IMG/VR virus record: IMGVR_UViG_3300025869_002029
Span: 1-20,278 of that record
DNA length: 20,278 bases
Source of the DNA: a virus
Strand: one strand, 5' to 3'
Part shown: piece by piece, positions 4,535 through 20,278 of the stretch
How positions within the stretch are numbered: the stretch's first letter is position 1
Layout: every line of letters starts with the position of its first letter
Position numbers and translations under genes: made by a program
Notes under the pieces: generated by a model
Database searches by the model: none
What the model saw: only the letters and a program-made list of their open reading frames with translations
What the model was told of the DNA's origin: nothing

Positions 4535-5175
4535 AGCTGCCTCACATTCATTTCTTTACTAAAATTCTTATTATAGAACATATTCTGTTTCTCTTGCTTT
4601 TCTATAGTTTTCGGATGATACAAACTCAATTCTTCTTGTGGTGGTAAATGAGCATATGTTTTACAACCTGTAATATATTCATGTAGTGGTCTAGTCCATC
4701 TTATAGATTCAGCCCTTCTGAATACACGAGCTTGATAATCAGGATAGTTTACCCAACCATTGTCTGTAACTCTCCAACCCCATCTTTGTATATGTTCTTC
4801 TTTCATATCTTCAATTGTATTCACTCTTGGTATCCAAATCAAATCAACTTCGTTTATCTTTAATATTTCTTTTAATTGTTTTACTAATATTTCGTTTGGA
4901 TACTCATCAGCATCTATATGAAATACATAATCACCACTACTCTTTTCTATAACTGAATTTTTATGTTCTGCAAAATTACCATCAAGTTTTCTTTTGTAAA
5001 CTATAGCTTTGTTTTCAGATAGATATTCGCCTAAAACAGCTTCTACCCTTTCGTCATCACCATCTACACAAACTACTATCTCATCTTCATCATCTATGTT
5101 CTTACTTAATACTTCTAATAACTTAATCAGTTCTTCAGCTTCATTGTGAACTGTAATGCCATAACTAATTTTCAT
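4531..5175 (-). CDS. GT2 family glycosyltransferase
   Basis: This is a compact 214-residue GT-A enzyme of family 2. The N-terminus SYGITVHNEAEEL (4-16) is the usual first strand and nucleotide-binding loop. VCVDGDDE (35-42) is the second strand acidic motif, and FHIDADEYP at 85-93 holds the DxD metal site. WTRPLHEYI near residue 160 resembles the catalytic-side loop of WaaE/KdtX-like lipopolysaccharide glucosyltransferases. It lacks a membrane segment. The gene overlaps the upstream one by 11 bases. The fold assignment is firm. Specificity is open: this subfamily acts on lipopolysaccharide core in bacteria, but phage members may act on other acceptors. Confidence 0.85.
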   Translation of the reverse strand: MKISYGITVHNEAEELIKLLEVLSKNIDDEDEIVVCVDGDDERVEAVLGEYLSENKAIVYKRKLDGNFAEHKNSVIEKSSGDYVFHIDADEYPNEILVKQLKEILKINEVDLIWIPRVNTIEDMKEEHIQRWGWRVTDNGWVNYPDYQARVFRRAESIRWTRPLHEYITGCKTYAHLPPQEELSLYHPKTIEKQEKQNMFYNKNFSKEMNVRQL

Positions 5176-5605
5176 TCTTTAACTCTTGTACAAATTGTGT
5201 TGGTAATCTTAAATCCTCTAATGTTACTGAACTCTTCCTAGCCTTATCGTAATTATAACTTCTGTAGATACCATATTTGTTTATTATAGTTCTCATCTTT
5301 TTGTAAAGTTGTTTAGCAGTACCATCCAATTGAACTCTGTATATCTTTTTCTTCTCATCTACTATTTCAGTTGTACCTGCTTGTTCTAATAAAGTCTTCA
5401 TCTGTACAAGTGTTGGTTTATTAGATACCTCTAACTGAATACCATGAACTAAATACTGACTTGATTTGTTCTTAGCTCTGTTTCTTAACTTTGGGTCTAA
5501 CACTAAAATAGTTCTACGAAGTTTTCTACCATCTCTATTTTCATAAACGAAAGATACTATATCACCAGGACTAACTTTATTCCAACTATATGGTAGCTTA
5601 GCCAT
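5165..5605 (-). CDS. Unknown protein with a basic beta-barrel-like N-terminal domain
   Basis: I do not recognise a named family for this 146-residue protein. The N-terminal part, with SPGDIVSFVY (12-21) then RTILVLDP (31-38), looks like a small SH3/PemK-like beta barrel that often binds nucleic acid. The rest is rich in lysine and arginine and includes a helical segment around residues 98-112 (KQLYKKMRTIINKYG). It overlaps the upstream zinc-finger gene by 8 bases and the downstream GT2 gene by 11, so it is translated with them. A nucleic-acid-binding role is only an inference from charge and fold impression. Confidence 0.6.
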   Translation of the reverse strand: MAKLPYSWNKVSPGDIVSFVYENRDGRKLRRTILVLDPKLRNRAKNKSSQYLVHGIQLEVSNKPTLVQMKTLLEQAGTTEIVDEKKKIYRVQLDGTAKQLYKKMRTIINKYGIYRSYNYDKARKSSVTLEDLRLPTQFVQELKNEN

Positions 5606-6053
5606 TATCTTTTATAACTCCCATAGCTTGACAAGCATCCATAAATTCAAACTGACCAAACTTTTGTGCATTCTCAACATCCAATCTTTTCTCATGACCA
5701 TCGTATTTTTCTCTATCCTCTTTAGGTATTTCTACCACCCCAGCATAATACCAATGCCAGTTACTGACAGTTCCTTCGGGATATATTATACCTTTTTCTC
5801 CCATATTAATCACAGATGGAAACCAAACGATATCTCGTTCCTTATCAAATATTTTTAAGTCGTTCATCAATTGACTATGACTCTTTGTATATTCTTCTAA
5901 TTTTTCACTATCGAAAGCAAGATAAGAATTAGATGTCATACCACATTGAAAACAGATATAAGATTCAAAAGGCTTACCTTCTACTTCTGTTTTCTCTACA
6001 AAGCAATTACTATGTAAATCTTTACATAAGGGGCAATTTGTTTTTTCTTCCAT
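5598..6053 (-). CDS. Unknown protein with N-terminal CxxC...CxxC zinc finger
   Basis: The 151-residue protein carries two CxxC pairs, C7/C10 and C34/C37 (CPLC and CFQCG), which form a plausible zinc ribbon. The remainder is acidic and rich in tryptophan and tyrosine (for example NWHWYYAGVVEIP), with no motif I can name. The gene starts one base after the stop of the GT-B gene, behind gaagg, and overlaps the next gene. Zinc ribbons of this kind are common in phage accessory proteins that bind nucleic acid or other proteins; which applies here is not visible. Confidence 0.65.
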   Translation of the reverse strand: MEEKTNCPLCKDLHSNCFVEKTEVEGKPFESYICFQCGMTSNSYLAFDSEKLEEYTKSHSQLMNDLKIFDKERDIVWFPSVINMGEKGIIYPEGTVSNWHWYYAGVVEIPKEDREKYDGHEKRLDVENAQKFGQFEFMDACQAMGVIKDNG

Positions 6054-6054
6054 T

Positions 6055-7389
6055 CTATACCTTCTTTAGTTTTGGTAACTTCATCTCAGTTGGTTTGGCA
6101 CTAGATACTTTCTTTAACTTTGGCAACTTTAAGCTAACCGACTTTGGTTGTTCTTCAAATTTAGGTAGATGATTATCTAATATCCTACCAAATTCAGTAG
6201 TCATTTTGTCCATAGTAAAATTAACTCTATTGTGCATAGCCTGTCTTTTGGCTTTCATTGTATATTCTCTATTCTTTTTAAATACATCCATCATAATTTG
6301 TGAAGCGTATTGGTAGTTTGCGGTAAACCATTCAGCACCTTCAACGAATATTTCTTTCGGTAGAGCTGATGGGTGTACTTTAGTTAATGAGCCTGGCAAA
6401 AGAACTGAGTTATTCTTATTAAGAAAATCCTTATGTCCACTCCAATCAGGAGCAATAACTATCTTCTCTGATATACTAGCCTCTAATAAAGGACGACCGA
6501 AACCCTCACCATGCGTAAAACTAACATGCGCTTTTACTTTTGGATGATTATACATCTGATTCATCTCTTCATCAGTTAAATCTCCGTGTAGTAAATAAAC
6601 AGGAGGAAGCTTGCCGCTTACAGTATCTTTAATATCTTTTATCTTCTGCTTTATTTCATTCCTATCTATAATAGAAAAGGTAGCACCACTTGTTTTCATA
6701 ACTAACGCTGGTGGATTAGGTTTGTTCTTAAAAGTTTCTAAGAATGTCTTTAACAACATACCCGTATCTTTTCTATCCTCTCCTAAGTTACCTTGTAGCC
6801 AATGTCCAGTATAAAGAAATGCAAATCTTTCTTTAATTTTATCCATTTCAGCTTTAAGACTATCTGATATTTCTTTTGTCTTCTTATAAATATTTGTGTC
6901 AGCACCTTCAAATAAAACTTCTATTGGTGATGTTACTTTTAACTCACCAGTTTTCTGTTTTGTTTGTTCATTTATTTCCTCATAAGATACTCTTTCAAAT
7001 ATCCCCTTTACAAACTTCGAGGGTACAATGTTCATATTCATTTTGTTCATACCCTGAATCCACTCTACCTTTGGAGCAGTATTTTCAATACCAGCAGTAA
7101 CTCCTATATTATACTTTCCTAATGAACTAAATTCATTTGGTACGCTGATGTGTAGATGAATGTCGGGTTGTCTTTCTAATTTATTATCAGTAATAATTCT
7201 ATCGATTATTATCTTATCATTTGGCTTTTTATCATCAAGCGCATTCATTGGACAATTTCCCCAACGAAGTGAATTAATTTTTATATCAAACTTATCCATA
7301 GATATAAGACTTCTAACTAAATCTCTACTATGAGAACCATATCCACTTCTTGTGGCAACAGGTCCTGTAATTAACATTAATGGTTTCAT
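6055..7389 (-). CDS. GT4-type GT-B glycosyltransferase with C-terminal KLPKLKKV repeats
   Basis: This 444-residue protein has two Rossmann-like halves. The N-terminal half starts LMLITGPVATRSGYGSHSRD, with the glycine-rich acceptor-side loop usual in GT4 enzymes. The C-terminal half contains FTHGEGFGRPLLEA (291-304), the E-x7-E motif that binds the nucleotide-sugar. After the catalytic part (about residue 410) comes a lysine-rich tail carrying the octapeptide KLPKLKKV twice, at 421-428 and 437-444, the second copy being the very C-terminus. The start has aagagg upstream. It may work with the second GT4 gene just upstream. The tail could tether the enzyme to an anionic partner such as DNA or a membrane, which is inference. 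Confidence 0.85.
   Translation of the reverse strand: MKPLMLITGPVATRSGYGSHSRDLVRSLISMDKFDIKINSLRWGNCPMNALDDKKPNDKIIIDRIITDNKLERQPDIHLHISVPNEFSSLGKYNIGVTAGIENTAPKVEWIQGMNKMNMNIVPSKFVKGIFERVSYEEINEQTKQKTGELKVTSPIEVLFEGADTNIYKKTKEISDSLKAEMDKIKERFAFLYTGHWLQGNLGEDRKDTGMLLKTFLETFKNKPNPPALVMKTSGATFSIIDRNEIKQKIKDIKDTVSGKLPPVYLLHGDLTDEEMNQMYNHPKVKAHVSFTHGEGFGRPLLEASISEKIVIAPDWSGHKDFLNKNNSVLLPGSLTKVHPSALPKEIFVEGAEWFTANYQYASQIMMDVFKKNREYTMKAKRQAMHNRVNFTMDKMTTEFGRILDNHLPKFEEQPKSVSLKLPKLKKVSSAKPTEMKLPKLKKV
6058..6129 (-). repeat. Duplicated segment encoding two KLPKLKKV octapeptides
   Basis: Two 24-base units, 6129-6106 and 6081-6058, encode the same eight residues at the end of the GT-B gene and are separated by 24 bases. 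They differ at several third codon positions, which suggests selection on the peptide rather than a very recent DNA duplication. Confidence 0.75.
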
Positions 7390-7398
7390 ATTTACCTC

Positions 7399-7533
7399 TT
7401 AGTTAAATGGGCTTTTTAAAAATTCAATAAATCCATCACGGACTTTTCTCATAAAAATATCCTCAGAACCTCTAAAGTTTCCTACTATATTTCTTCTACG
7501 ATATGTTCTTTTAGTTTTATTTCTTGCTGGCAT
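7399..7533 (-). CDS. Small basic protein, 44 residues, unknown function
   Basis: This ORF fills most of the gap between two glycosyltransferase genes. It starts MPARNKTKRTYRRRN and ends EFLKSPFN, with a strongly basic N-terminal third (several Arg and Lys in the first 14 residues) and a mixed helix-like remainder. Its ATG has taggagaag upstream, a good ribosome site that partly covers the end of the preceding gene. The next gene starts 9 bases after its stop, with its own ribosome site. Translation therefore looks likely. No family is recognised; a short basic peptide could bind DNA, RNA or a partner enzyme. Confidence 0.6.
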   Translation of the reverse strand: MPARNKTKRTYRRRNIVGNFRGSEDIFMRKVRDGFIEFLKSPFN

Positions 7534-7542
7534 ATTCTTCTC

Positions 7543-8940
7543 CTATACTTCGTGCATTGTAAATCGTTTACGTGGTGTCCACTTTTCAAATGCTGTATTC
7601 ATATGACTTACAAAGTTGTTAGACATAGCAGTTGCTGACATCATAGCGTCATCACTCATAACAAATTCATGACCTAACCTACCACACTCTTCTCTTTTTT
7701 CTTTACCCATATCATACCATTCTTTGATGGCATCTGCAAAGTCATCTGAGCGAGGCCTGTCATCATAGATGTATGGTGTAGGTATTGAACCCTGCAAACT
7801 TCTATTAGACGGCCAAATCGGTTTACACCAATCACCCCAAGTCAAATCTTCATTGTCTTTCCATTTCTTATCATCGTGCAATGAATCAATCCAACTGTAG
7901 TCTTCGTAGGTTATGAACTTATCCTTATACTTAAACCCAACTTGGTCTTGTAATCCACCTGTAACAGTAACCGATATCGGTGTTCCACACATCAGAGCCT
8001 CACAAGTGGTTAAACCAAATCCTTCATTGGATGCCATATTAATTTGAACATCTGCTATATTGTACAGATAACATAATTGCTTATCGTCTAATTTTTTATG
8101 TGAAAATATAACATCATAGTTAGGACAAAGCTCTCTGACAACCTCAGGTAAATCTGTACCATTTTCATCACGCGGCTGAGTGTGCATTATGAGAGCACAC
8201 TTATCAGATTGTTCTTTTGGTAACATATCACAGAATTGTTTGTAAGCCATTATCACGTCACCTGGCAACTTTCTTCTGATGTTTCTATTGTTCCAAAATA
8301 CTATAAATTCATAGTCTTTATTTTGGGTTACGTTTCTTTTAAATTGTAGTAAATCACCCCACTCTTTTGTGTTTAATGGTGTGACAGGATAAAAGTTTTT
8401 TTCATTTATACCATGTGGTACGTAAGTATTATCCCAATCTGTTCTTGGTTTTATCTGACAAACGTTATCTACTATATTAACTGTCTGTTTAGATATATTC
8501 ATAATCAAATCACAAGACTCATAGAATGGTTCGTTCCATCTTGGATAAGGCAAGTCATCCCAAATATTATAATAGAATATTGGAGTAGTTTGTCTTAACT
8601 CGTGCTCCATCTGATATAACCATCCCCAAAATCTAGGGTCTGTATAGTGAAGTATAGCATCGACTCCATTTTCTAATTCAATAACCTGTTTGACTATACT
8701 AGAACTACCGTATCCGCTGACTGGATATATTTTAAGATAAGCATCTTCTATACCTGTATCCTTTCTTACAGATTCGTTCATGTCTACAATCTTACCTTCG
8801 TCAGGATGCTTTATAGCACCACCAACTTGTACCCAATCGTATTCTTTCAATGTTCCAAGTACAAATTCACGAGACATCGTACCCACACCGGATGACATTC
8901 TTAAATCATCCGATAATAATAAAATCTTTTTCTTAGCCAT
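7543..8940 (-). CDS. GT4-type GT-B glycosyltransferase
   Basis: The 465-residue protein has an N-terminal Rossmann-like start (KKILLLSDDLRMSSGVGT, 4-21) and the C-terminal donor site ASNEGFGLTTCEALMCGTP at 303-321, a textbook E-x7-E motif of group 1 (GT4) glycosyltransferases. FWNNRNIRRKLPGD around 215-228 matches the conserved basic loop that contacts the sugar-nucleotide phosphates. The C-terminal helix expected to cross back to the first domain is present. It overlaps the upstream small gene by 8 bases, with agagg 8 bases before its ATG. It is probably cytoplasmic. The product cannot be specified. Confidence 0.87.
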   Translation of the reverse strand: MAKKKILLLSDDLRMSSGVGTMSREFVLGTLKEYDWVQVGGAIKHPDEGKIVDMNESVRKDTGIEDAYLKIYPVSGYGSSSIVKQVIELENGVDAILHYTDPRFWGWLYQMEHELRQTTPIFYYNIWDDLPYPRWNEPFYESCDLIMNISKQTVNIVDNVCQIKPRTDWDNTYVPHGINEKNFYPVTPLNTKEWGDLLQFKRNVTQNKDYEFIVFWNNRNIRRKLPGDVIMAYKQFCDMLPKEQSDKCALIMHTQPRDENGTDLPEVVRELCPNYDVIFSHKKLDDKQLCYLYNIADVQINMASNEGFGLTTCEALMCGTPISVTVTGGLQDQVGFKYKDKFITYEDYSWIDSLHDDKKWKDNEDLTWGDWCKPIWPSNRSLQGSIPTPYIYDDRPRSDDFADAIKEWYDMGKEKREECGRLGHEFVMSDDAMMSATAMSNNFVSHMNTAFEKWTPRKRFTMHEV

Positions 8941-9792: not shown

Positions 9793-10201
9793 AGTCATTC
9801 CTCTTTTGTTTCTTTGGTGGTTTTTCTGATAAGCAAAATACAGCACACTTATGAAACTCATTTAAACCTTCTACTATGTGTTCCTCACTACTATAAGTAT
9901 ATTGAAATCGAATCCTATCAGACATATTAACATCTTTTTTACTAATAATATCATACCATATAAAATCATTCTTTTTAAGTTCATCGCCAACTTTTATGGT
10001 TGTCTTAAAGTGTAATCTTGATTCATAGTCTACCAAGAATCTTTTTAAATCTTCTGATGATACAGAGCCTTTCTCGTACCACAAGGTTAGATAGTATGTT
10101 ATAGAATCATTGTGAATTTCTTCTAATTTACTTATCACTTCTTCTTCATGAGATTTGTTTAAAAAATCAGATAGGTTTAGTCTTAAAGTTATTTTAACCA
10201 T
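9767..10201 (-). CDS. Unknown protein, 144 residues
   Basis: I recognise no family. The N-terminal 35 residues read as a strand and an acidic helix (KSHEEEVISKLEEIHND), the middle contains alternating strands (FKTTIKVGDEL; FIWYDIIS), and the C-terminus is basic and polar (KPPKKQKRNDYESSYSRK), probably disordered. Its ATG overlaps the nuclease stop as TAATG with ggag upstream, so it is likely co-translated with the nuclease and could be its partner. Confidence 0.6.
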   Translation of the reverse strand: MVKITLRLNLSDFLNKSHEEEVISKLEEIHNDSITYYLTLWYEKGSVSSEDLKRFLVDYESRLHFKTTIKVGDELKKNDFIWYDIISKKDVNMSDRIRFQYTYSSEEHIVEGLNEFHKCAVFCLSEKPPKKQKRNDYESSYSRK

Positions 10202-11067
10202 TACTTTACTCCTGCGTCACAAAATTCTGTTTGATTGAAATCACAATACCTGCAATTTTTCTTAGATGCCACTTTACTATAAGTATGTTCAGTATTGTAT
10301 TCTCCATCTTTATCAAAGCATTCTTTCATAAACTCATTCAATCTGTTTGTTACTTGATTGATTGATGGTTTACCATTTGCTGGTATAAACTTCTGAACCC
10401 TCTTCTGAGGAAAGTCTAAGTTCTCATACAACTTTCGTTTCACAATAAAGTATTCAACCTCTATCTTATCTAACGGATGATTGAATTGTTTTGAGTAGAA
10501 TTGTTTATACAATAACAATTGGTCACTCTTTAGTTTATCAGCCTTCTGCCATTTGTTCCAGCCCATAGTAGATGTTTTGATATCATATATCTTAATCACA
10601 TCTCTAACTGTATCTCTTATAACTACATCCAAATAACCTATAAACTTAATACCATTAGGTAAGTCATAGTCAAGCGGAACTTCTATACCGATAAGTTCGT
10701 AACCTTTCTTACTGAAGTATTGAGCTCTCTTCTTTTTAAGGAAGTCTAATATCAATAGTCCGTGTTCATAAAACTCTACCATATCAGCTTGTGTACAGAA
10801 CTCAACTCCACCATTCTTAGTCATAGCGTTTTCGTAGTTCTTCTTCATTCTGATTCTTAACATATCATCTAATGGGAGAGCCTCTGCCTGTTTAGCAGTA
10901 TCATTATACATTACAGTTAAGAATGTTTGTATTACCTCATGCATCGATGTTCCAAAGAGAGTATGAATACTTTCTGTGAACTCTCTATTTCCTTCTATGT
11001 ATGCAGTTTTCCATCTGAATGGACATTGAGCCCACATAGAATACTGACTATAACTTATTTTTTTCAT
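10201..11067 (-). CDS. PD-(D/E)XK nuclease with iron-sulfur type cysteines (RecB/Cas4-like)
   Basis: From the ATG at 11067 the protein has 288 residues. Expected nuclease residues are visible in order: H43 in GTSMHE, E129 (IGIEVP), D147 (GYLDVV), D162-x-K164 (YDIKTS) and the QLLLYK element at 183-188. Cysteine C15 in AQCPFRWK and the C-terminal group C272, C275 and C283 fit the pattern that holds a 4Fe-4S cluster in AddB and Cas4 nucleases. Such enzymes trim DNA ends during replication, recombination or packaging. The start was moved from a GTG at 11076 because the ATG overlaps the upstream stop as ATGA. Its neighbours suggest work on phage DNA. Confidence 0.85.
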   Translation of the reverse strand: MKKISYSQYSMWAQCPFRWKTAYIEGNREFTESIHTLFGTSMHEVIQTFLTVMYNDTAKQAEALPLDDMLRIRMKKNYENAMTKNGGVEFCTQADMVEFYEHGLLILDFLKKKRAQYFSKKGYELIGIEVPLDYDLPNGIKFIGYLDVVIRDTVRDVIKIYDIKTSTMGWNKWQKADKLKSDQLLLYKQFYSKQFNHPLDKIEVEYFIVKRKLYENLDFPQKRVQKFIPANGKPSINQVTNRLNEFMKECFDKDGEYNTEHTYSKVASKKNCRYCDFNQTEFCDAGVK

Positions 11068-11495
11068 TTTCCCCACTTACCATTCTTTACGATGGTGGCC
11101 ATAATACCATAATTACTCACATCTAAGTAAGCATCTTCCATTGGTTCACCATCTACTGCGTTTTGTTTATTGCCCATCAATAGGGTTTTTAATCTTTGTA
11201 TCTTATCATTCATCCTAAACCATAAACCTGTAAGAGATAGATGTATTTCCTCTTCAGTTTGTAACTGAGTTCCGACACTTATATTACCAGGACCGTAGTC
11301 ATGCTGCTTATGTAGAAACAATTCGTATTGTTCCTTCTGTAATCTCCTAAACTCCTTAGTCATCTTCGGCCACTCCTTCTCCATCTGAGCTACAATGTTA
11401 TCAGATTTTACTGGCGTAGGCTTTTGTGGTGCATAATCACCCATTACTGATTCTGTTACTGATTCGTATGTTGATGTTTCTTTTATATTACTCAT
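11064..11495 (-). CDS. Nmad1/DUF1599-like protein (nucleotide-modification associated)
   Basis: This is a 143-residue, mostly helical protein. After a flexible N-terminal 35 residues come HDYG (65-68), GLWFRMNDKIQRLKTLL (90-106), and a C-terminal acidic helix with EDAYLDVSNYGIM (120-132). These match my memory of DUF1599, also called nucleotide modification associated domain 1, which is encoded beside base-modification genes in phages. The family biochemistry is not settled. I took the ATG at 11495 (gggag just upstream) over a TTG at 11507. It is the first gene after a strong promoter and lies directly downstream of a Mom-like gene, which supports a DNA-modification context. Confidence 0.7.
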   Translation of the reverse strand: MSNIKETSTYESVTESVMGDYAPQKPTPVKSDNIVAQMEKEWPKMTKEFRRLQKEQYELFLHKQHDYGPGNISVGTQLQTEEEIHLSLTGLWFRMNDKIQRLKTLLMGNKQNAVDGEPMEDAYLDVSNYGIMATIVKNGKWGK

Positions 11496-11518
11496 ATAGT
11501 CTCCCAATCTAACAACTA

Positions 11519-11548
11519 AATATACACAATTTTATGTATACAAGTCAA
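11519..11548 (-). promoter_or_regulatory. Sigma70-like promoter for the Nmad1-nuclease operon
   Basis: On the minus strand, TTGACT (11548-11543) and TATATT (11524-11519) are separated by 18 bases. The -35 box lies in the last codons of the upstream Mom-like gene. The wider pattern TTGACTTGTATA-N12-TATATT is identical to the one before the DNA polymerase gene. The ATG follows about 24 bases after the -10 box. Confidence 0.7.
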
Positions 11549-12164
11549 GCTTTTTTATTTGTCTTTTAATTTTTTTGTTTAGATAGTATGTATAAATATG
11601 CTTTGGTTTTGTCTTCTTCCAAAATATATTTTCATCACCAGCTTTATATCTACGATTTAGTTCCCTACCATAAGGCCTGTCCAGCTGATTTAAAGACCTA
11701 CTATGCATCTCTTTACCATCCACCATTAGTATTCTACCACCCGATGTCTCACCTAAGTAATCAAAGTTACTAGCTTTATAGATTACGCCAGTATGTCCGT
11801 GGTGTTGGTCAGCAAATGAAACTATAACTTCCATATCTGTAGTTTGTTTCAATAACTTAAATGTTTTTCCTATGAAATAACTTTCTGTATTCTTAGGTGT
11901 ATCATCAATGCAAACTAATCTTCTAAGTTCTAAACACTTATCAGGATTGATAGGATTATACTTAGCTGCTGTAGCTGGCATTGATGGATGAGCATACATC
12001 ATAGCTCCAATCATCTTTGGTATCCCAAAGTTTCCTTCTCTATATAACCCATAGTGATATAAAGACTGAACACCATTTACATTGTGTGAGTAATGGTGCT
12101 TTTCTATGAAACTAACAAGTGACTTTCTAGATATTAACTCTACTGTAAAGTCCTTTACCGACAT
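11532..12164 (-). CDS. Mom-like DNA modification protein (first of two; GNAT-like fold)
   Basis: The 210-residue protein carries the pattern I associate with phage Mu Mom, the GNAT-like enzyme of adenine methylcarbamoylation. Visible elements are HHYSH (23-27), KMIGAMMYAHP (50-60), LELRRLVCID (78-87), SFADQHHGHTGVIYKASN (116-133), HSRS (154-157) and KHIYTYYL (188-195). The same elements recur in the gene at 13850-14617, which strengthens the assignment. Mom acts on double-stranded DNA in the cytoplasm and protects it from restriction. The start overlaps the gp62 stop as TAATG. Mom is normally made late in Mu, but here the gene follows gp62 in a replication operon. Substrate base and added group cannot be read from sequence. 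Confidence 0.75.
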   Translation of the reverse strand: MSVKDFTVELISRKSLVSFIEKHHYSHNVNGVQSLYHYGLYREGNFGIPKMIGAMMYAHPSMPATAAKYNPINPDKCLELRRLVCIDDTPKNTESYFIGKTFKLLKQTTDMEVIVSFADQHHGHTGVIYKASNFDYLGETSGGRILMVDGKEMHSRSLNQLDRPYGRELNRRYKAGDENIFWKKTKPKHIYTYYLNKKIKRQIKKLDLYT

Positions 12165-12640
12165 TATATAAATCCAAGCTTTCTAACTTCTTTTTCTTCA
12201 ATACCATACTTAAATAACATATCAGCTAACTCTGACTGACCACCGGCAGATATTTCGTACATATCTACAGCATCACTAGCCTCTTTCATACTACATTGTA
12301 ATTCTTTAACTACGATTTCGTAAAGCCATTTTGGATACTTCATCTTTTTGTCTCCTTTAATATATCTTAACCATTCTTTTCTTTTTGGTAAGATGCTTGT
12401 ATAAAATTTATATAATTGTTTTGGTTCTAATGGATACTTCTGAATCTCATTTACCAAGTCAATCCAATCAGGCTTCATAGATAGAAACCTATTAACCATA
12501 TAGTTAGACCAAGTCTTCTTATCTTCGTCTGAGATGTCTTCCCAATAATTAGGATTTTGAACCGCTGTTATCTGACTTATGTGGTCGAACAGACTCTTCT
12601 TTTTTACCAAAGATTTTTTCCCACTTTTTGTTCCACTCAT
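12164..12640 (-). CDS. 62: Clamp loader small subunit gp62
   Basis: The 158-residue protein fits T4-type gp62 (187 residues in T4), the small subunit that with four gp44 copies loads the clamp at primer ends. The pattern SLFDHISQIT (16-25), SNYMVNRFLSMKPDWIDLVN and FYTSILPKRKEWLRYIKG is typical of marine T4-like gp62, and its position near gp44 agrees. The start is uncertain. The ATG at 12640 has ggggg only at a loose distance, and its first 30 codons overlap a small ORF in another frame. A TTG at codon 11 (VKKKSLFDHI) would be closer to related proteins. Confidence 0.8.
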   Translation of the reverse strand: MSGTKSGKKSLVKKKSLFDHISQITAVQNPNYWEDISDEDKKTWSNYMVNRFLSMKPDWIDLVNEIQKYPLEPKQLYKFYTSILPKRKEWLRYIKGDKKMKYPKWLYEIVVKELQCSMKEASDAVDMYEISAGGQSELADMLFKYGIEEKEVRKLGFI

Positions 12641-12701
12641 TCTGAGTTATCCCCCTTCTTAGTTTATCACCCTTACCAGCTCCAGCATCTTTCTTACTCA
12701 T
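12549..12701 (-). CDS. Small conserved-type phage protein, 50 residues, overlapping the gp62 start
   Basis: This ORF starts with an ATG overlapping the last 8 bases of the zinc-ribbon gene and reads MSKKDAGAGKGDKLRRG, then NEWNKKWEKIFGKKEE, then a polar tail. The pattern GDKxR...NWxxIFGKK recalls small proteins I have seen in many tailed phages, of unknown function. It fills the gap between the zinc-ribbon gene and gp62 and overlaps gp62 by 92 bases in a different frame. The ribosome site (cagga) is very close to the ATG, so translation is probably coupled to the preceding gene. Confidence 0.6.
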   Translation of the reverse strand: MSKKDAGAGKGDKLRRGITQNEWNKKWEKIFGKKEESVRPHKSDNSGSKS

Positions 12702-12942
12702 TTCCTGTTGGCATCAGTTTATCTGGAACCTTACCACAATTACCACAACTATATACCTGAACTGGAATCATAGCTTCTTGTCCTGTTGGTGACATCAGAG
12801 CTGATAACCTTCTTAGAAAGAAAGCTTGAATGAAAGATGCGTTTCCACAATCGTCACACTTTACCATTTCTGTATCGTTAATGTCTACTTGCGCCTGTGG
12901 TGGTTGTCCACCCTTTATAGGTTTCATTGGTTTTGTACTCAT
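12694..12942 (-). CDS. Small zinc-ribbon protein, 82 residues
   Basis: The protein has two CxxC pairs, C29/C32 (VKCDDCGN) and C66/C69 (YSCGNCGK), separated by a hydrophobic and basic middle (FFLRRLSALMSPTG). This is a classic zinc-ribbon arrangement after a disordered proline-rich N-terminus. Similar small proteins sit in the replication region of marine T4-like phages as far as I recall. The ATG overlaps the gp44 stop as ATGA and has aggag 8 bases upstream. Its place within the clamp-loader block suggests a replication or transcription accessory role, which is inference. Confidence 0.75.
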   Translation of the reverse strand: MSTKPMKPIKGGQPPQAQVDINDTEMVKCDDCGNASFIQAFFLRRLSALMSPTGQEAMIPVQVYSCGNCGKVPDKLMPTGNE

Positions 12943-13862
12943 CTTATTACTCCTAATAATTCTATTACCATAGCCATAGCATTTATCTCTTTATCAACTA
13001 CCTGACCATCCGATAACTGATACTTAGCAATAATCAATATACATTCAGCTATATGTCCTGTACCATATGAATCAACCTCATCATACATTAACTTATATAA
13101 CTCAGCAAAGTCTGTTACCTGACTATTAGCCAATAACTTTCTTACACTTTTAAATGCATCCTTCTTACTTTCCTTACTGATTATCTCTAACAACTTAATT
13201 TTATAATCATTTTCTACTAATGATTGTTTATCTACAATCAACATCCCATCTACGACTTGTCTTTGACAAGAGTTTATCACCCTACGGATATCAGGATAAC
13301 CAGCATTTACCAACCCAGCTATATCATCCATCTTAGAAACTACATCTTCTTCCTTTAATATGTTAGTCATATGGATAGCAACTTCTTTCTTTGATGGTGG
13401 TATTACCTGAAATGATTGACAACGACTTTGTATCGGGTCAATTATTCTTTCTACAAAGTTACAAGTAAGAATGAACCTACAATGTTTAGAGAAAGTCTCC
13501 ATAAGGTTACGTAAAGCGGCTTGAGCGTTAGGTGTGATGTAATCACACTCATCTAAGATTATTATCTTATAATCTTTGAACCCCATAGTCGAAGCGAACC
13601 CACGAACTTTGGTACGGACTGTATCCACACTATTCTCATCAGAGGCGTTAATATACATATAGTCACATTCTATGTTATTAACTAATAACTTAGCGAGAGT
13701 GGTTTTACCTGTACCGGCTTTCCCATATAATAAAAGGTGTGGTAAGTCACCACTCTCAAGATAAACAGATACTTTACTTTTAAGATGTTCATTCCCAATG
13801 TAAGTATCCAACGATGTTGGCCGGTATTTCTCAACCCATAAACTATGCTCTAATCTTTCCAT
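12939..13862 (-). CDS. 44: Clamp loader AAA+ ATPase gp44
   Basis: This 307-residue protein (T4 gp44 has 319) is the ATPase subunit of the clamp loader, which opens the gp45 ring and closes it on DNA. It has the RFC-type N-terminus WVEKYRPTSLDTYIGN (9-24), Walker A GKAGTGKT (47-54), Walker B ILDECD (102-107), sensor 1 TCN (133-135) and the SRC arginine-finger motif at 146-148. The C-terminal collar helices follow. It overlaps the upstream Mom-like gene by 13 bases. All key residues are present, so it should be active. Confidence 0.95.
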   Translation of the reverse strand: MERLEHSLWVEKYRPTSLDTYIGNEHLKSKVSVYLESGDLPHLLLYGKAGTGKTTLAKLLVNNIECDYMYINASDENSVDTVRTKVRGFASTMGFKDYKIIILDECDYITPNAQAALRNLMETFSKHCRFILTCNFVERIIDPIQSRCQSFQVIPPSKKEVAIHMTNILKEEDVVSKMDDIAGLVNAGYPDIRRVINSCQRQVVDGMLIVDKQSLVENDYKIKLLEIISKESKKDAFKSVRKLLANSQVTDFAELYKLMYDEVDSYGTGHIAECILIIAKYQLSDGQVVDKEINAMAMVIELLGVIR

Positions 13863-14617
13863 TTGTTATTTTCTACCTCTATTTTTGTTATCGTAACATC
13901 GTGTTTGTAATCCTTTGGATAGTCCATAACAGGATGTTTCATCATTTTATGAAAGTTTCTATTCTCTCTTTTGTTACCAAGAAAGTAAATGTATCTATGT
14001 TTACTAGCTTCTTTCTTTAACCAAAAGTCTCTACCGATAGCTTTGATTAAGTTCTTAGGAGCAGCAGAACCATACTTAGAATACACGCTTCTACTGTGCA
14101 TCCAATCATCATCTTCACTTACTCTTAATGAGTATGTTGGTGCTAACTGAAAGTCTCCACAACCTTGGTATATCCAATTAGTAGCCTGATAGATAGCACC
14201 ATCGTGACTTTGTTCAGGATCAGCGTAAGATATTAAAACCTTTATGTCTTTAGCATATTGCTTCATCCATTTAAATGAGGCTGAAATAACATGTGACTCT
14301 ATATTCTTACCATAACCATCGTGTATGAATAATCTAGTTAGTTCTAATACATTTTTGTTTTCTATAATCTCTTCTTTGAATATAGAACCAACAACTCTTC
14401 TACCAACTGGAAATCCGTAACAAGCTACACCTATTAGTTTCTCTTCAGTTTCATCGAAGAATTGATGAGGGTTGTCTGTCTTGTAGAAAACTCCTAATGG
14501 ATATCTACAAGACGACAATCTTCCGCTGTAGTGATTTTTCTCAATCATATCTTTAGCCAATGGTTTATATATTGGTCTAATAGTTACTCTTGATTTATCT
14601 ACATACGTTGTTTCCAT
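13850..14617 (-). CDS. Mom-like DNA modification protein (second, divergent copy)
   Basis: The 255-residue protein repeats, in order, the elements of the other Mom-like gene: NHYS (28-31), KLIGVACYGFP (60-70), LELTRLF (91-97), SYADPEQSHDGAIYQATN (130-147), MHSRS (173-177) and KHRYIYFL (206-213). Outside these blocks the two proteins differ strongly. This one has an extra insert around 45-60 and a C-terminal extension of about 40 residues, rich in lysine and histidine. It lies between the clamp and the clamp loader and overlaps both neighbours, starting as TAATG on the gp45 stop with no clear ribosome site. It may modify a different base or target, or be a partner of the first copy. Confidence 0.72.
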   Translation of the reverse strand: METTYVDKSRVTIRPIYKPLAKDMIEKNHYSGRLSSCRYPLGVFYKTDNPHQFFDETEEKLIGVACYGFPVGRRVVGSIFKEEIIENKNVLELTRLFIHDGYGKNIESHVISASFKWMKQYAKDIKVLISYADPEQSHDGAIYQATNWIYQGCGDFQLAPTYSLRVSEDDDWMHSRSVYSKYGSAAPKNLIKAIGRDFWLKKEASKHRYIYFLGNKRENRNFHKMMKHPVMDYPKDYKHDVTITKIEVENNKWKD

Positions 14618-15333
14618 TACACATCGGTGTCTGCAACTAGATAGTAAGTAGCATCATACTCATCAATCTTAAAATTGATACGAGCCAATCCACCTGAACT
14701 AACCTCTAATGTAGCACTTTCACATTCTTTGTTAGCAACCAATACATCTCTGAATAGATTTGCATTAAAAGAAACGTTCTCAATCTTATCATAAGACTCA
14801 GTTTCTACAGGTAAGGTAACACGATTAGTATTAATCTCAGCATAACCTATCACAACCTTTACTCCATCATCACCAGTAATAACTGTAAAGTTATCTGTAT
14901 CAGCAAGAGCACCTTTACCAGCAATAAATTTGCTCATAAAAGTTTTATCAACTTTAATCTTTACCTCAAAATCAGGTATAGATTTAAGATTAGGTGGTGA
15001 ACTTATAACCGATAGGTCTGAAAGCATGTAGTTGACATCAGACTTTGTATCTGATATCTTTAGAGATACGGCTTTATCTCCAGCTTTAGTTAGGTTCATC
15101 GATATATTCTCTGATAGAACAGAAAGTAGTTTAACAAGCTGCTCTGTGTTGTACACACCTAAATCAGCTTCATCAAATTTCCATCCTGTCATATGAAGTT
15201 CTCCAAGAAGGTTCTTATCACCTGTAATGAATCTAGTAGAAAGTTTATCACCCTTACTATTAATCACCACCGATGAGCAGTTCCCACCAAGATAGTATTT
15301 ATCGATAAAACGATTCAATGAATGTTTATTCAT
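14617..15333 (-). CDS. 45: DNA polymerase sliding clamp gp45
   Basis: This protein of 238 residues (T4 gp45 has 228) has the sequence character of the T4-type trimeric clamp. It begins with a helix (HSLNRFIDKYYLGG), followed by repeated strand-helix-strand units, and TEQLVKLLSVL and LFRDVLVANKE read as clamp helices lining DNA. The position directly after gp43 and before gp44 agrees. The clamp tethers gp43 and in T4 also activates late transcription. The start has aaggag upstream and follows a 59-base AT-rich gap with a palindrome, so it may have its own promoter. Confidence 0.9.
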   Translation of the reverse strand: MNKHSLNRFIDKYYLGGNCSSVVINSKGDKLSTRFITGDKNLLGELHMTGWKFDEADLGVYNTEQLVKLLSVLSENISMNLTKAGDKAVSLKISDTKSDVNYMLSDLSVISSPPNLKSIPDFEVKIKVDKTFMSKFIAGKGALADTDNFTVITGDDGVKVVIGYAEINTNRVTLPVETESYDKIENVSFNANLFRDVLVANKECESATLEVSSGGLARINFKIDEYDATYYLVADTDV

Positions 15334-15392: not shown

Positions 15393-17888
15393 TCAAAAAA
15401 ATCTTTCCATAGATGCTTTTTTGTTTACCGGCTCATTCCATTTTAGAGATTCATAGAACATCATTATCTTTTTCTCTAACATCTGAGCATACATCTTTTT
15501 GTAATCTATATTAGCCTTAATAAAATCTATTATTTGTGGTGGGTCTTCATAACCTTTGTAGCCACAGGATAATAATCCCAAATCATTCTGTTTAAGATAT
15601 ACCCATCTTATCTTTTCAGAGTTACTTATCTTCTCATATTTGTTACCGATTCCGAAATGTCTTAGTAAATCGTTATAGGTTAGAGCAGCTTTGATGTGAG
15701 CAGGCGCTCCTTTGGCAAACTTTGTAAACTTACCCTTCTTACCATCTGTATATTTCTTTAGATTATTTATGCCTGTTGGCATCGCTATCCTATCGAAGTC
15801 CAATAGTTTCATAGATTCTTTGAAGTTTATAATTCTCTCATCTATCTTATCCTTTGGTACAGTAGCTAGAATATCTTCCAACACACTCTTCAGTAACTCA
15901 CCCATAGCTTTTGGAAAGTTACTACGAACTAAGTCCAAACCTTTTACATGCAGTTTGTTTACCTTAACTCCATTATCGTTGATTATCTTCATACCATATC
16001 TTTTCTTTACAATAAACAAACCTGATTTAGCTATCAACTCCTGCTTTATCTCAAACCTATGTACATCTAAGTTTAGGAACTTCTTAGCAAAGTAATCATA
16101 AGACTTATTTAGAAACCCCTGCATCTCATCAGCTACATCTAATATCCTCTTACTCATCATAGTCTCGCTATCGAAATCCATAGTAGGAAATCTCTTCTTA
16201 ACTAATGGAAGAGCTGAATAGAATACTGAATCTGTATCGATGTAAATACAATAGTCCTTATCATCTCCTAACTCTTTGTTGTAGAAATGATTACCAATCT
16301 TCTTAGTAAACTTAATTAGTTCTTGACCTGTGAGTGTTGTAGCCTCAGCATTATCTAAGTCATAGAAACGAAATACTGGCAAACCTAACACACCATAGAG
16401 AGAGTTTAGAACCACCTTCTGAATTAACTGACGACTTTTGAAGTATGTATATTTTTCATTGTCACCAGCATCACCAAACTTCTTCATTAACTTTCTATAC
16501 TCCACACGAGTATCGAACCACTTTTCTAGTAGGGCTGGAATCAAACCTTTCTTATCGCTACGATACAGAACACCATTGGATGATACAGAAACTTTATTGT
16601 TCTCAAAGAAATCTTTTAGTTCTGTTTCTGTAAGCTTGCCCATCTCCTTATCATTTTGTACAAGAGTATATGTCTTCTTAGTACCTTTCATAAACTCTTC
16701 TACATCCCAACCTTTTAGTTTACCCATTTTTGTTTCGGGTGATACATTTAGAGACATAATAACAGATGGGTACATAGATGTGATATCTAAATCAAATACC
16801 CAATCGTGTTTACCTCTCTGTGGCGATTGAACATAAGCGCCTGTAAATTTGTCACCATCTTCTTTCATTACTCTAGGTGGTTTGTTTGGTGCAACTATAT
16901 CTAAGTTCTTTAGATAAACTAAGATAGCACCTTCCAAATAACGTGAGGAAAAATAAACATCCTCATAAGGAACATGACCTACGTGACATACACCTCTAGC
17001 CATATCGATAAAGTCTAACTTATCATGCAATCTCTTTACAAGTCTAACATCATGAATGTTATACTCTACAAACTTATCTATATTGTTTTCATATAAGTCG
17101 TTGAGCGTTCCACTATATTCAACTTTCTTTTCACTAAGTTCGTGTTCAGCTACAGCATCTAATCTGTAAGATGATAGCTGGGTATAAGTAAATAATTTAT
17201 ATAGAGCTAAGTAATCTAAACAACTAACACCAGCAAACATATATCTCTTACGATGTTTGTTCCACTTAACTTCTCTTATAGGAGATATTAGTTTAGCTAT
17301 ATCAGAGCCAACAATCTTACAAGCTCTATTGTATACGTAAGGCATATCGAATGAGTCTGAGTTCCAACCTGTAATTATGGTTGGTTTCCAATCTAAATAT
17401 AATAGAAAAAATCTTTGTAGTAAATCAAATTCTGTTTCAAATGATTCTATGATTACATTGTCTTTTGATTTTAAACTGAGTTTCTTCTTCTCATCTAAAA
17501 CCAAGCAATAATACTCGTCCTCTTCTGAGTTATGAACTGCGATAGCAGTTATCTTATCTTTAGAATCTTCGGGATATGGAAAACCATCTGTTACTTCAAC
17601 CTCTATATCGATTGTCATAATACGATGACCATTTGAGAGTTCTTCTGAATCCGTATAGTTGTCTACCAATACACGAGTTTCAGGTGGTACATCTGATTCC
17701 CATAGGTTTGGTGTTTCTGGATCGAATCTGTATACTTTCTTTAACTTATCTCCATACAAAGATATATGAGTACCAGCCCTATCTTTCATATAAGCATATT
17801 TCTTATATGGTAAAGTATAGTAGCCTGTTTCGTCATCCCAAATATGGACTGTTTGTGTTTTATTGTCGTAATATATGTTTTGATACAT
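15393..17888 (-). CDS. 43: Family B replicative DNA polymerase gp43
   Basis: The polymerase has 831 residues (T4 gp43 has 898). All proofreading motifs are visible: Exo I DIE (94-96), Exo II GWNSDSFDMPY (174-184) and Exo III YNIHD (276-280). So are the polymerase motifs: motif A DITSMYPS (368-375), motif B KVVLNSLYG (491-499) and motif C YIDTDS (549-554), with catalytic aspartates D368, D551 and D553. The C-terminus ends SMERFF, close in kind to the clamp-binding tail of T4-like polymerases. It is the first gene after a strong promoter. The ribosome site is weak (aggg about 14 bases before the ATG). No intein or split is present. Confidence 0.97.
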   Translation of the reverse strand: MYQNIYYDNKTQTVHIWDDETGYYTLPYKKYAYMKDRAGTHISLYGDKLKKVYRFDPETPNLWESDVPPETRVLVDNYTDSEELSNGHRIMTIDIEVEVTDGFPYPEDSKDKITAIAVHNSEEDEYYCLVLDEKKKLSLKSKDNVIIESFETEFDLLQRFFLLYLDWKPTIITGWNSDSFDMPYVYNRACKIVGSDIAKLISPIREVKWNKHRKRYMFAGVSCLDYLALYKLFTYTQLSSYRLDAVAEHELSEKKVEYSGTLNDLYENNIDKFVEYNIHDVRLVKRLHDKLDFIDMARGVCHVGHVPYEDVYFSSRYLEGAILVYLKNLDIVAPNKPPRVMKEDGDKFTGAYVQSPQRGKHDWVFDLDITSMYPSVIMSLNVSPETKMGKLKGWDVEEFMKGTKKTYTLVQNDKEMGKLTETELKDFFENNKVSVSSNGVLYRSDKKGLIPALLEKWFDTRVEYRKLMKKFGDAGDNEKYTYFKSRQLIQKVVLNSLYGVLGLPVFRFYDLDNAEATTLTGQELIKFTKKIGNHFYNKELGDDKDYCIYIDTDSVFYSALPLVKKRFPTMDFDSETMMSKRILDVADEMQGFLNKSYDYFAKKFLNLDVHRFEIKQELIAKSGLFIVKKRYGMKIINDNGVKVNKLHVKGLDLVRSNFPKAMGELLKSVLEDILATVPKDKIDERIINFKESMKLLDFDRIAMPTGINNLKKYTDGKKGKFTKFAKGAPAHIKAALTYNDLLRHFGIGNKYEKISNSEKIRWVYLKQNDLGLLSCGYKGYEDPPQIIDFIKANIDYKKMYAQMLEKKIMMFYESLKWNEPVNKKASMERFF

Positions 17889-17920: not shown

Positions 17921-17950
17921 AATATACAACTAAAACCTTATACAAGTCAA
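17921..17950 (-). promoter_or_regulatory. Sigma70-like promoter for the replisome operon
   Basis: On the minus strand TTGACT (17950-17945) is followed after 18 bases by TATATT (17926-17921), about 32 bases before the polymerase ATG. The extended pattern TTGACTTGTATA-N12-TATATT is shared with the promoter at 11519-11548. It lies just downstream of the receptor gene's terminator, so it starts a fresh transcript. Confidence 0.72.
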
Positions 17951-17967: not shown

Positions 17968-17987
17968 GGGGGAGATTGAACTCCCCC
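17968..17987 (-). terminator. Rho-independent terminator of the receptor gene
   Basis: A perfect 7-bp stem (gggggag/ctccccc) with a six-base loop lies 13 bases after the receptor stop codon. On the minus strand it is followed by TTTTAT and preceded by an A-run; read on the plus strand it is followed by a T-run, so it could act in both directions. Confidence 0.8.
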
Positions 17988-17999
17988 ATTTTTTACCAT

Positions 18000-20278
18000 T
18001 TAGAAATTGACTGATAGTCCTACGTTAAAGTGTCTTGGTGTTCCAAGAAATACTTCAGCGTTATGAGCAGCGTGAACTTTGTCACCGAACCCATTGTATT
18101 GGCTATTGTCAACAGCATCTTGAACATAAACATCGTCAAGAGCATTAAAGAGATGACCACTAAGTGTCATATCTAATCCACCAACTGTTGGTAGTTTGTA
18201 AGATAGGTGTAAGTCTAACTTGCCATAAGATGGAGTTTTCCATACTTGAGCTCTGTCAACATCACCACTAACCTCACGAGAATCTGGACTCCAATCAGAA
18301 TAATGATTGTCGTACCATTTGTAAAGACCTTGTATTCTAAGTCCTTCGATTGGTTTAACTGTAAGACCACCAACATAAGATGTCTGTGGCATATCTCCTA
18401 CCTTTAAACCATCAAGAGCGTATTCATACTCTGTAGTAGTCTGTCCTATGACTTGACCATCTTCATTGTACTCCATCTCTTGGTAGTCACCTTTCGCGTC
18501 TCCATCGAACTTCCAAACACCATTACTAATAGCTAAATTTAAGTCAACCATTTCGTGAAGAGCAATCTGTGATTCCACTTCCCAACCTTTATGACTTTGA
18601 TTTACGCCAGTTAGATAAATAATGTCTGTGTCACCTGAATCACCTTGACCTGTGTTTACAGATTTAGTGAGGTTTCTATCTTTCCATTGAGTATTATAAG
18701 AACTCAACTTAACAGAAACTTTATCACTATTGTATTCTCCACCGAACTCATTAGATATGAATTTCTCATTATCAGGATCCTGTGATACAGTTCCATCATA
18801 AGCAATTACATTGTCTAAGATTGGTGGTTTCTGAACGTACCCAATGTTAGCAAATGCTGACATTCTGTCGTCAAGATTATACCTACCACCACCTTTAATC
18901 TGAAAGGTTGTGATATTATCTGCTTCAACAAGTTCCTTCTCTACAGAGAAATGGTCTTTGTAAGTGTAACCGATAGTAGAGATTCCACCCATACCATATA
19001 AGTTAAACTTAGCTACATCGTACTTACCTTGTAAGAAAGCACCAAACCAATCGACAGTCGTAGAATTATGATAAGCAATCTCATCACCTAATCTAACAAC
19101 TTTTCCATCGGGAGCATTCTTATCAGCAAAGTCTACATAGTAGTCTCCACCAAGTAAGTCACGAACTTCTCTAGCGTGTTCAATACCAGCAGTTCTCCAA
19201 TCAATACCAACCTGTAGTTCAAGAGCGTCTGAAACAACATAATTTAACTTTGATATTAAACCATAAGTATCTTGTCGGTTAATTGAGTTACGAAGAATAC
19301 CAGTAGAACGATTTTCGGTATCAGAGAAAGCAGAATCTACATTAGCAGAGTTCTGTGCAATTTCTCCATCCCAATCCCAAGTCCAAGGTGAAGATGAATA
19401 CCATCTTTCTCCCTCAACTGCAGGTTGTCTACTGACACTACCATATGTTCCAGTACCACCACCTGAACCACCACTCCAATAAGCAACAGAACTTAAACTA
19501 AGTTCGTCATTTATATCAAGAAAGTGATTGATGTTAACAAGCGGTTTATGGAAATAGTTCTCTCTTTCATTTAAGAAATCAGAACTAAATCTATCCGTTG
19601 TCTTAGCACCATACATATACCAATACTGTTGTCCTTTATAGTCGGAACTAATTGGAGCAACGTTTTGGTTAAAGAACCTACCAGCTTCAGTTTCAAACTT
19701 GTTACCAGCAACATAAGCAGAATCATCATACCCATCAATACCACCAGCCAACTCTTGAGAGTAAGTAGCAATATTCTGTTTGTATAGATTCTGTCCATGC
19801 CTTTGTGGAGCACCGATAGCATATAACTCAAACCTTTGGTCATCACTTACAGCATATGAACTACCTAAGTAGTATGCCCAAGCATCAGTCCAAGTTCCAT
19901 CAATAAACCCATCACCAGTTTTACGAACTACCGCACCACTTATTGCTAGTTTATCATTGATAAGACCTGAGTTATAGGTTAGAGTGGATTTTTTAAAACC
20001 ACCTTCACCAACTTCTTGTTTGAGTTTACCACCCTTTTCCATAGCTGCAGGATCGGTAATAATATTCATAGTTCCACCTATAGAAGGCGTTGCTAGATTG
20101 ACGGCTGATAGTCCTCTTTGCATCTGAATTGAGGAAGTAGCATCACCTACCCCATCCCAATTAGACCAATAAACCCATCCGTTCTCCATATCATTTTGGG
20201 GAACACCATTAATCATAACAGCAACGTTTCTTTGGTTGAAACCACGAACATTGATACGAGCATCACCCGCACCACCAC
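18000..20278 (-). CDS. TonB-dependent outer-membrane receptor (5' end outside window)
   Basis: About 758 codons are visible, with no start: the frame is open to the edge upstream of the ATG at 20216. The visible N-terminal part is a TonB receptor plug domain, with ARINVRGFNQRNVAVMINGV, then DMENGWVYWSNWDG and the typical NLATPSIGGTMNII segment. The rest is a long beta-barrel region of alternating aromatic and polar strands ending HFNVGLSVNF, with the terminal phenylalanine expected for outer-membrane assembly. Such receptors import siderophores, vitamins or glycans using TonB energy. The VYWSNW plug style recalls Bacteroidota-type receptors. No stop or frameshift breaks it. It is isolated by a terminator. 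Ligand and host of origin are unknown. Confidence 0.9.
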   Translation of the reverse strand, partial: GGAGDARINVRGFNQRNVAVMINGVPQNDMENGWVYWSNWDGVGDATSSIQMQRGLSAVNLATPSIGGTMNIITDPAAMEKGGKLKQEVGEGGFKKSTLTYNSGLINDKLAISGAVVRKTGDGFIDGTWTDAWAYYLGSSYAVSDDQRFELYAIGAPQRHGQNLYKQNIATYSQELAGGIDGYDDSAYVAGNKFETEAGRFFNQNVAPISSDYKGQQYWYMYGAKTTDRFSSDFLNERENYFHKPLVNINHFLDINDELSLSSVAYWSGGSGGGTGTYGSVSRQPAVEGERWYSSSPWTWDWDGEIAQNSANVDSAFSDTENRSTGILRNSINRQDTYGLISKLNYVVSDALELQVGIDWRTAGIEHAREVRDLLGGDYYVDFADKNAPDGKVVRLGDEIAYHNSTTVDWFGAFLQGKYDVAKFNLYGMGGISTIGYTYKDHFSVEKELVEADNITTFQIKGGGRYNLDDRMSAFANIGYVQKPPILDNVIAYDGTVSQDPDNEKFISNEFGGEYNSDKVSVKLSSYNTQWKDRNLTKSVNTGQGDSGDTDIIYLTGVNQSHKGWEVESQIALHEMVDLNLAISNGVWKFDGDAKGDYQEMEYNEDGQVIGQTTTEYEYALDGLKVGDMPQTSYVGGLTVKPIEGLRIQGLYKWYDNHYSDWSPDSREVSGDVDRAQVWKTPSYGKLDLHLSYKLPTVGGLDMTLSGHLFNALDDVYVQDAVDNSQYNGFGDKVHAAHNAEVFLGTPRHFNVGLSVNF

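Follow-up and report, generated by a model that had tools for sequence, protein, structure and literature searches.

Known Mom Proteins and the Present Locus

The Mom protein of phage Mu marks adenine with a carbamoylmethyl (glycinamide) group. To our knowledge, Mom is the sole well-studied enzyme of its kind, and it has been seen almost always as one gene per phage. Mu carries its single mom outside the replication module, as the initial annotation of the present locus stated; the gene also overlaps the regulator com. In this study, two Mom-family GNAT genes, MomA and MomB, were analyzed in IMGVR_UViG_3300025869_002029, a 20,278-base uncultured metagenomic virus record (the window). MomB (13850-14617, minus strand, 255 amino acids) lies between the genes of the sliding clamp and the clamp-loader large subunit gp44. 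MomA (11532-12164, minus strand, 210 amino acids) lies between those of the clamp-loader small subunit gp62 and a DUF1599 protein. Both open reading frames (ORFs) were thus found flanking gp44 and gp62, as annotated. Where Mu has one mom outside its replication genes, the window and many of its relatives have two or three Moms, which lie within the replisome operon or close to it.

That Moms form a family of GNATs, and that large phages carry them, is already known (PMC7824862). In jumbo phages (large myoviruses), Mom domains are fused to nucleases of the restriction endonuclease fold, with predicted self-protection (PMC7824862). In contrast, MomA and MomB are full-length, stand-alone proteins with no fused nuclease, and they sit among replication genes. 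The Moms of the cultured phages RaK2, ICP1, S-SSM7, Geobacillus PK3.6, Polaribacter P12002L, and HGTV-1 belong to the same family as MomA and MomB. Fourteen cultured phages with Mom were checked, and 13 of them had a single copy; RaK2 had a second, weak and partial match inside a 584-amino-acid frame. Within the regions seen, no cultured Mom phage had a Mom in its clamp-loader operon. In the open literature searched, no phage was reported to have two or three stand-alone Moms or to carry Moms within a clamp-loader operon.

Phage T4 also has two unequal DNA-modifying enzymes, the alpha- and beta-glucosyltransferases. One of them is enough as long as glucosylation stays above about 80%; the other becomes important, as a counter-defence, once Brig1 and restriction are at work jointly (PMC13216743). 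The alpha enzyme attaches to the clamp gp45 and presumably works alongside replication, and the alpha/beta pair is rare, with six phages reported (PMC13216743). The T4 enzymes differ from Mom in fold and chemistry (glucose on 5-hydroxymethylcytosine), and the Mom pair, unlike theirs, is common across its clade. The Mom pair provides a second case, after the T4 glucosyltransferases, for asking why phages keep several DNA-modifying enzymes.

Family Membership, Fold, and Active-Site Residues

In profile searches against Pfam Mom (PF25680), MomA scored 143.5 bits and MomB 149.7 bits. The curated cut-off is 27.1 bits, and neither protein was placed in an unrelated family. Both also matched phrog_1384, "Mom-like DNA modification protein" (E 1.5e-56 for MomA and 3.6e-47 for MomB). 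The sole convincing solved relative by sequence was the Mu Mom structure 8bv8 (E 2e-14 and 7e-10). The two proteins are 31% identical to each other (BLASTP E 3e-19). AlphaFold (AF2) models were built from 41-member alignments of window and contig proteins, and the predicted local distance difference test score was 87.2 for each. When the models were compared with solved structures, 8bv8 ranked first for MomA (Z 20.1, root-mean-square deviation 3.2, 188 residues aligned; next GNAT 14.3) and for MomB (Z 20.5, 3.2, 183 aligned; next GNAT 11.9). Both models therefore showed a GNAT fold closest to that of Mu Mom.

The entry 8bv8 is "phage Mu protein Mom inactive mutant S124A", the word "inactive" being taken from the PDB title. 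MomA has S95 and MomB S108 at the position of Mu S124. This serine is invariant, and the 8bv8 chain has A at the column. Other positions invariant in the 41-sequence alignments were, for MomA/MomB, H24/H29, Y25/Y30, R82/R95, S116/S130, D119/D133, Y129/Y143, and N133/N147. The family residues HY, ELxR, SxxD, GxxY, N, and K-Y near the C-terminus are invariant in both alignments; Mu Mom keeps the same residues except K, which is Q in Mu. With the S124 equivalent and the rest of the family-invariant residues in place, MomA and MomB both look catalytically complete from their sequences. They resemble Mu Mom in family profile, in GNAT fold (Z about 20), in the serine equivalent to S124, and in the remaining invariant residues, and these results bore out the annotation of two Mom-type GNATs.

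The ordered motif set on which that annotation was based was present in both proteins, and 0 of 200,000 shuffles of the two reproduced it. One member differs from Mu: the H of H-G-IY-A-N (H124 in MomA, H138 in MomB) is R in Mu Mom. MomB had also been described as having an insert and a basic C-terminal extension. The insert was confirmed as a longer loop at about residues 45–58, with a second insert near 160–172, but the basic extension was not. The C-terminal part of MomB up to residue 235 (...YPK) aligns with the Mu Mom C-terminus (...QPYPK), and of the two, MomA is the shorter protein. What MomB truly has in addition is a tail of 20 residues (236–255) with a net charge of −1; the last 25 residues of MomA carry +7.

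Ancestry of the Two Copies

A tree of 47 Mom proteins was constructed, in which support is weak at some deep forks and the branch to Mu Mom is long. MomA grouped with the Moms of RaK2, Vibrio F100, S-SSM7, DSL-LC03, Geobacillus PK3.6, Corynebacterium Darwin, and Aeromonas G2. MomB fell in a separate group with the Mom of Polaribacter phage P12002L. Forcing the A and B clades together cost 65 log-likelihood units (approximately unbiased test, p 2e-5), and the tree and this test ruled out a recent tandem duplication. Several A/B differences are fixed and conserved within each clade: F134 versus W148, P90 versus G103, and K130 versus Q144.

A further lineage, C, lies inside the B branch. It supplies a third Mom 15–60 kb away in several marine contigs, outside the operon slots and beside epimerase-like and hypothetical genes. 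In a second, distinct contig clade, two Moms lie in tandem upstream of the polymerase gene (Pol), and the first of them also belongs to lineage C. Three full Mom genes were found in 10 of 50 related contigs examined; two copies per phage, as annotated, hold for the window but are not the limit for its relatives.

Operon Slots in Relatives

The order clamp-MomB-gp44-zinc-ribbon protein-gp62-MomA is kept in dozens of marine relatives, which are contigs from independent samples with 72–100% protein identity. A search led by gp44 rather than by Mom yielded 40 operons covering clamp to DUF1599. Both Moms were present in 13, MomB only in 3, and neither in 24. Among 28 contigs of this search, 26 lacked Mom over their whole length, which reached 132, 91, and 86 kb in three of them, and the remaining 2 had the slot MomB as their sole Mom. 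The total collection of 70 distinct operons was partly Mom-led, so its proportions are biased: A and B in 40, A only in 3, B only in 3, a B-lineage Mom after DUF1599 in 6, and none in 18. The operon is bare, and Mom absent, in Mel-JY01, a cultured Microcystis phage. Since the operon core is also found without them, the Moms are additions, placed at fixed junctions, to an older replication operon.

Where relatives lack Moms, the clamp-gp44 junction either contains no gene or is taken by other genes. An N6_N4 DNA methyltransferase occupies exactly this slot in four contigs of one Mom-less clade (L233:5814-6986, L235:2473-3684, L243:2402-3607, and L252:5775-6986), a swap that gives a testable link between DNA modification and the replication operon. 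In three other contigs (L209:5578-6978, L229:4308-5735, and L256:5586-6977), the slot holds a 465-amino-acid protein that had no Pfam match, nor a PHROG match where tested; by eye, it resembles a GT-B glycosyltransferase. In other clades, the slot holds a DruA-domain protein (L128), a dUTPase-like gene (L152), or a MazG-like gene (L144), the latter two labels being read from the sequence. ClpP and sugar epimerase genes also occupy Mom slots in relatives. In one sub-clade, a ClpP-like protease lies between MomA and DUF1599 (L205:5227-5820, Clp_protease 136 bits; L240:4493-5047).

Co-Transcription and Selection

Every long gene of the window is on the minus strand. The transcription order is Pol, clamp, MomB, gp44, zinc-ribbon protein, small ORF, gp62, MomA, DUF1599 protein, and PD-(D/E)XK nuclease. 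Neighboring genes overlap by 1 base (clamp/MomB), 13 bases (MomB/gp44), 4 bases (gp44/zinc-ribbon protein), and 1 base (gp62/MomA). A conserved promoter element, TTGAC-N20-TATATT (17921-17950, minus strand), lies 32 bases before the Pol start. Of 34 loci tested, the window included, 32 had the same element ahead of Pol, usually 32 bases before the start, compared with 0.8% of shuffles. Its TTG/TAnnTT spacing is similar to that of the known Bacteroidota promoter. Ahead of the promoter, a GC-rich hairpin terminator (17968-17987, minus strand) separates the operon from a TonB-receptor gene, and a similar hairpin occurs at this position in 19 of the 34 loci. The terminator, the single conserved promoter, the tight spacing, and the 1–13 base overlaps make co-transcription of the Moms with polymerase and clamp, as proposed in the initial annotation, well supported. 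The T4 late promoter TATAAATA was also considered and rejected, with 5 matches against 4.0 expected by chance and none on the operon strand.

The annotation further suggested that modification is coupled to DNA synthesis. Physical coupling was unsupported at the sequence level. The window's polymerase ends in KKASMERFF, and an ERFF-type tail (KK-S-MERFF) was found in 0 of 40 MomA and 0 of 40 MomB proteins, a weak test, and other clamp-binding modes are possible. Such a polymerase-like tail was not found in the Moms, whereas the T4 alpha-glucosyltransferase is bound to the clamp.

The median ratio of nonsynonymous to synonymous substitution (dN/dS) was 0.115 for MomA and 0.096 for MomB, compared with 0.078 for the clamp, 0.123 for gp44, and a range of 0.078–0.154 for clamp, gp44, and gp62; the values are approximate, since dS is near saturation (about 1.1–1.2). 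MomA and MomB are both under strong purifying selection.

No com adjoins either Mom in a Mu-type com-mom unit: the clamp precedes MomB, and gp62 precedes MomA. The zinc-ribbon protein of the operon was considered as a Com analogue. This was unsupported, because the protein is conserved in operons both with and without Mom.

Proposed Function and Alternative Explanations

By homology to Mu, the Mom-type GNAT enzymes MomA and MomB would move an acyl-type group onto adenine N6 in DNA. They appear to have been added separately, at two junctions of a T4-like operon (polymerase-clamp-gp44-zinc-ribbon protein-gp62-DUF1599-nuclease). Expressed from the polymerase promoter, they would let modification keep pace with replication, so that new phage DNA is modified as it builds up and host restriction enzymes are blocked. 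The copies come from different deep Mom branches and are both strongly conserved, which suggests that they are non-redundant. Different sequence contexts are the most economical reading of two such divergent copies, and together they would cover more sites than one Mom. The initial annotation had proposed different targets for the copies, or joint action as a pair, and both ideas are compatible with deep separate ancestry, purifying selection, and joint retention; differing specificity is plausible. The best explanation as a whole, at a probability of roughly 0.7, is that MomA and MomB are two complete, separately acquired, non-redundant adenine-modifying enzymes, expressed with the replisome and protecting against restriction.

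Several points weigh against this explanation. Fold and motifs cannot reveal the acyl donor, the target base, or the sequence context, and the near-saturated dS loosens the estimates of constraint. The clamp-gp44 slot also takes genes unlinked to DNA modification (dUTPase-like and MazG-like), so position alone is no proof of function. The gp44 tree has just 3 (A) and 4 (B) presence/absence state changes, too few for A/B co-retention to be statistically testable, and shared descent could partly account for that co-retention.

One alternative is that the Moms are ordinary cargo at insertion-prone junctions, their placement reflecting early expression only and having nothing to do with replication or with one another. 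The Mom-less core in 24 of 40 operons, the unrelated genes in the slots of relatives (ClpP, sugar epimerase, dUTPase-like, and MazG-like), the lack of the polymerase clamp-tail motif in either Mom, and the location of the third Mom near epimerase-like and hypothetical genes would all fit such cargo. It is less easily reconciled with fixed slots, short gene overlaps, a broad clade, and strong constraint on both Moms. We consider this account possible but somewhat doubtful, and it is compatible with the Moms being DNA-modifying enzymes. The T4 two-enzyme precedent (PMC13216743) makes redundancy a serious rival, in which two Moms of the same reaction and target differ in timing or dose and are kept for a protection threshold or for mutual backup against defence. 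Their presence in one operon and their common core residues agree with this. Nevertheless, one gene could meet a pure dose need, and the copies are only 31% identical, from different branches, with fixed clade-specific differences (F134/W148, P90/G103, K130/Q144), which makes redundancy unlikely.

A change of substrate in one copy, for example MomA acting on DNA adenine and MomB on another base, RNA, or protein, draws on the versatility of GNAT folds and on the extra loops around the fold in MomB-lineage proteins. It is distinctly improbable, as all family-invariant residues including the S124 equivalent are present in both copies and both folds match Mu Mom equally. A pair created by misassembly or a chimeric contig was considered for the window, an uncultured 20-kb metagenomic record, and a TonB-receptor gene at the window end was considered as a sign of it. 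This gene lies upstream of Pol in many relatives, and the sign was rejected; the identical gene order in dozens of independently sampled contigs refutes a chimera in effect. The pair in marine relatives, sometimes with a third copy, suggests that several DNA disguises are laid down during replication. A more speculative extension, which we put forward tentatively, is a combinatorial code in which Moms A, B, and C would act on different contexts or add different groups during replication, with the clamp-gp44 junction swapping Mom, DNA methyltransferase, and DruA-like genes as host restriction changes. Natural variants for probing what sets target sequence and acyl donor are available in a large marine clade whose members keep two or three divergent Moms.

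Other Genes of the Window

All genes described here are on the minus strand. The family B DNA polymerase (gp43-like) is encoded at 15393-17888 (phrog_262 E 2e-185, Pfam DNA_pol_B). The sliding clamp (gp45-like) at 14617-15333 is directly upstream of MomB (phrog_223 E 3.6e-12). The clamp-loader subunits are the gp44-like protein at 12939-13862 (phrog_168 E 4.7e-84) and the gp62-like protein at 12164-12640 (phrog_225 E 9.7e-14). The operon core also includes the 82-amino-acid zinc-ribbon protein at 12694-12942, with two CxxC pairs and weak Zn-ribbon matches. The DUF1599 "nucleotide modification associated domain 1" protein at 11064-11507 (Pfam PF07659, 29.3 bits, cut-off 25) and the PD-(D/E)XK nuclease at 10201-11076 (Pfam PDDEXK_1, 75.2 bits) belong to the core as well. 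A 50-amino-acid ORF at 12549-12701 overlaps the gp62 start and is found in close relatives only.

Many relatives also conserve a series of glycosyltransferase-like genes, with a CTP-transferase-like gene, that in the window lies downstream of the operon (988-8940). The TonB-dependent receptor gene, with Plug and CarboxypepD_reg domains (18000-20216), is cut by the window end and is full length in L098:1847-4606; in many related phage contigs, it is directly upstream of Pol. A phage-encoded outer-membrane receptor perhaps has a role in superinfection exclusion or nutrient uptake. The host is probably a member of the Bacteroidota, which a neighboring TonB-dependent receptor with a CarboxypepD_reg domain would fit.

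Mom- and DruA-Related Genes in Other Contigs

ORFs of about 200 amino acids were found directly downstream of Mom in L014:1490-2083, L037:1963-2544, L040:8611-9210, L057:5882-6487, L071:6558-7172, L245:8309-8914, and L168:8036-8647. They matched both Druantia DruA (24–28 bits, near the cut-off of 27) and phrog_1384 Mom, and hhalign of their profile against MomB gave 96% probability. Through such ORFs, DruA of the Druantia defence system may be connected with the Mom/GNAT superfamily. Direct Mom-DruA homology was rejected, as a strict DruA profile against Mom gave 0.5% probability, and the link was seen through these intermediates only. DruA-domain proteins were also present in tandem-Mom phages (L128:11789-13003 with 81.6 bits, L153:1438-2673, L144:6481-7749, L152:9914-11164, and L129:9527-10528). 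The gene is in the clamp-gp44 slot in L128 and directly after a Mom gene in L129 and L153.

A row of three overlapping Mom-family genes lies upstream of Pol in L128:3270-5503. In-frame stops were flagged near the end of the MomA matches G009:C1:9893-10510, G008:C1:6605-7222, and G027:C1:31630-32250; the profile match past the stop probably reflects only a shorter C-terminus. In Synechococcus phage DSL-LC03 (L188:2424-3594), a gene annotated as a type II restriction endonuclease overlaps the start of the Mom gene, which suggests a phage-borne restriction-modification unit with Mom as protector.

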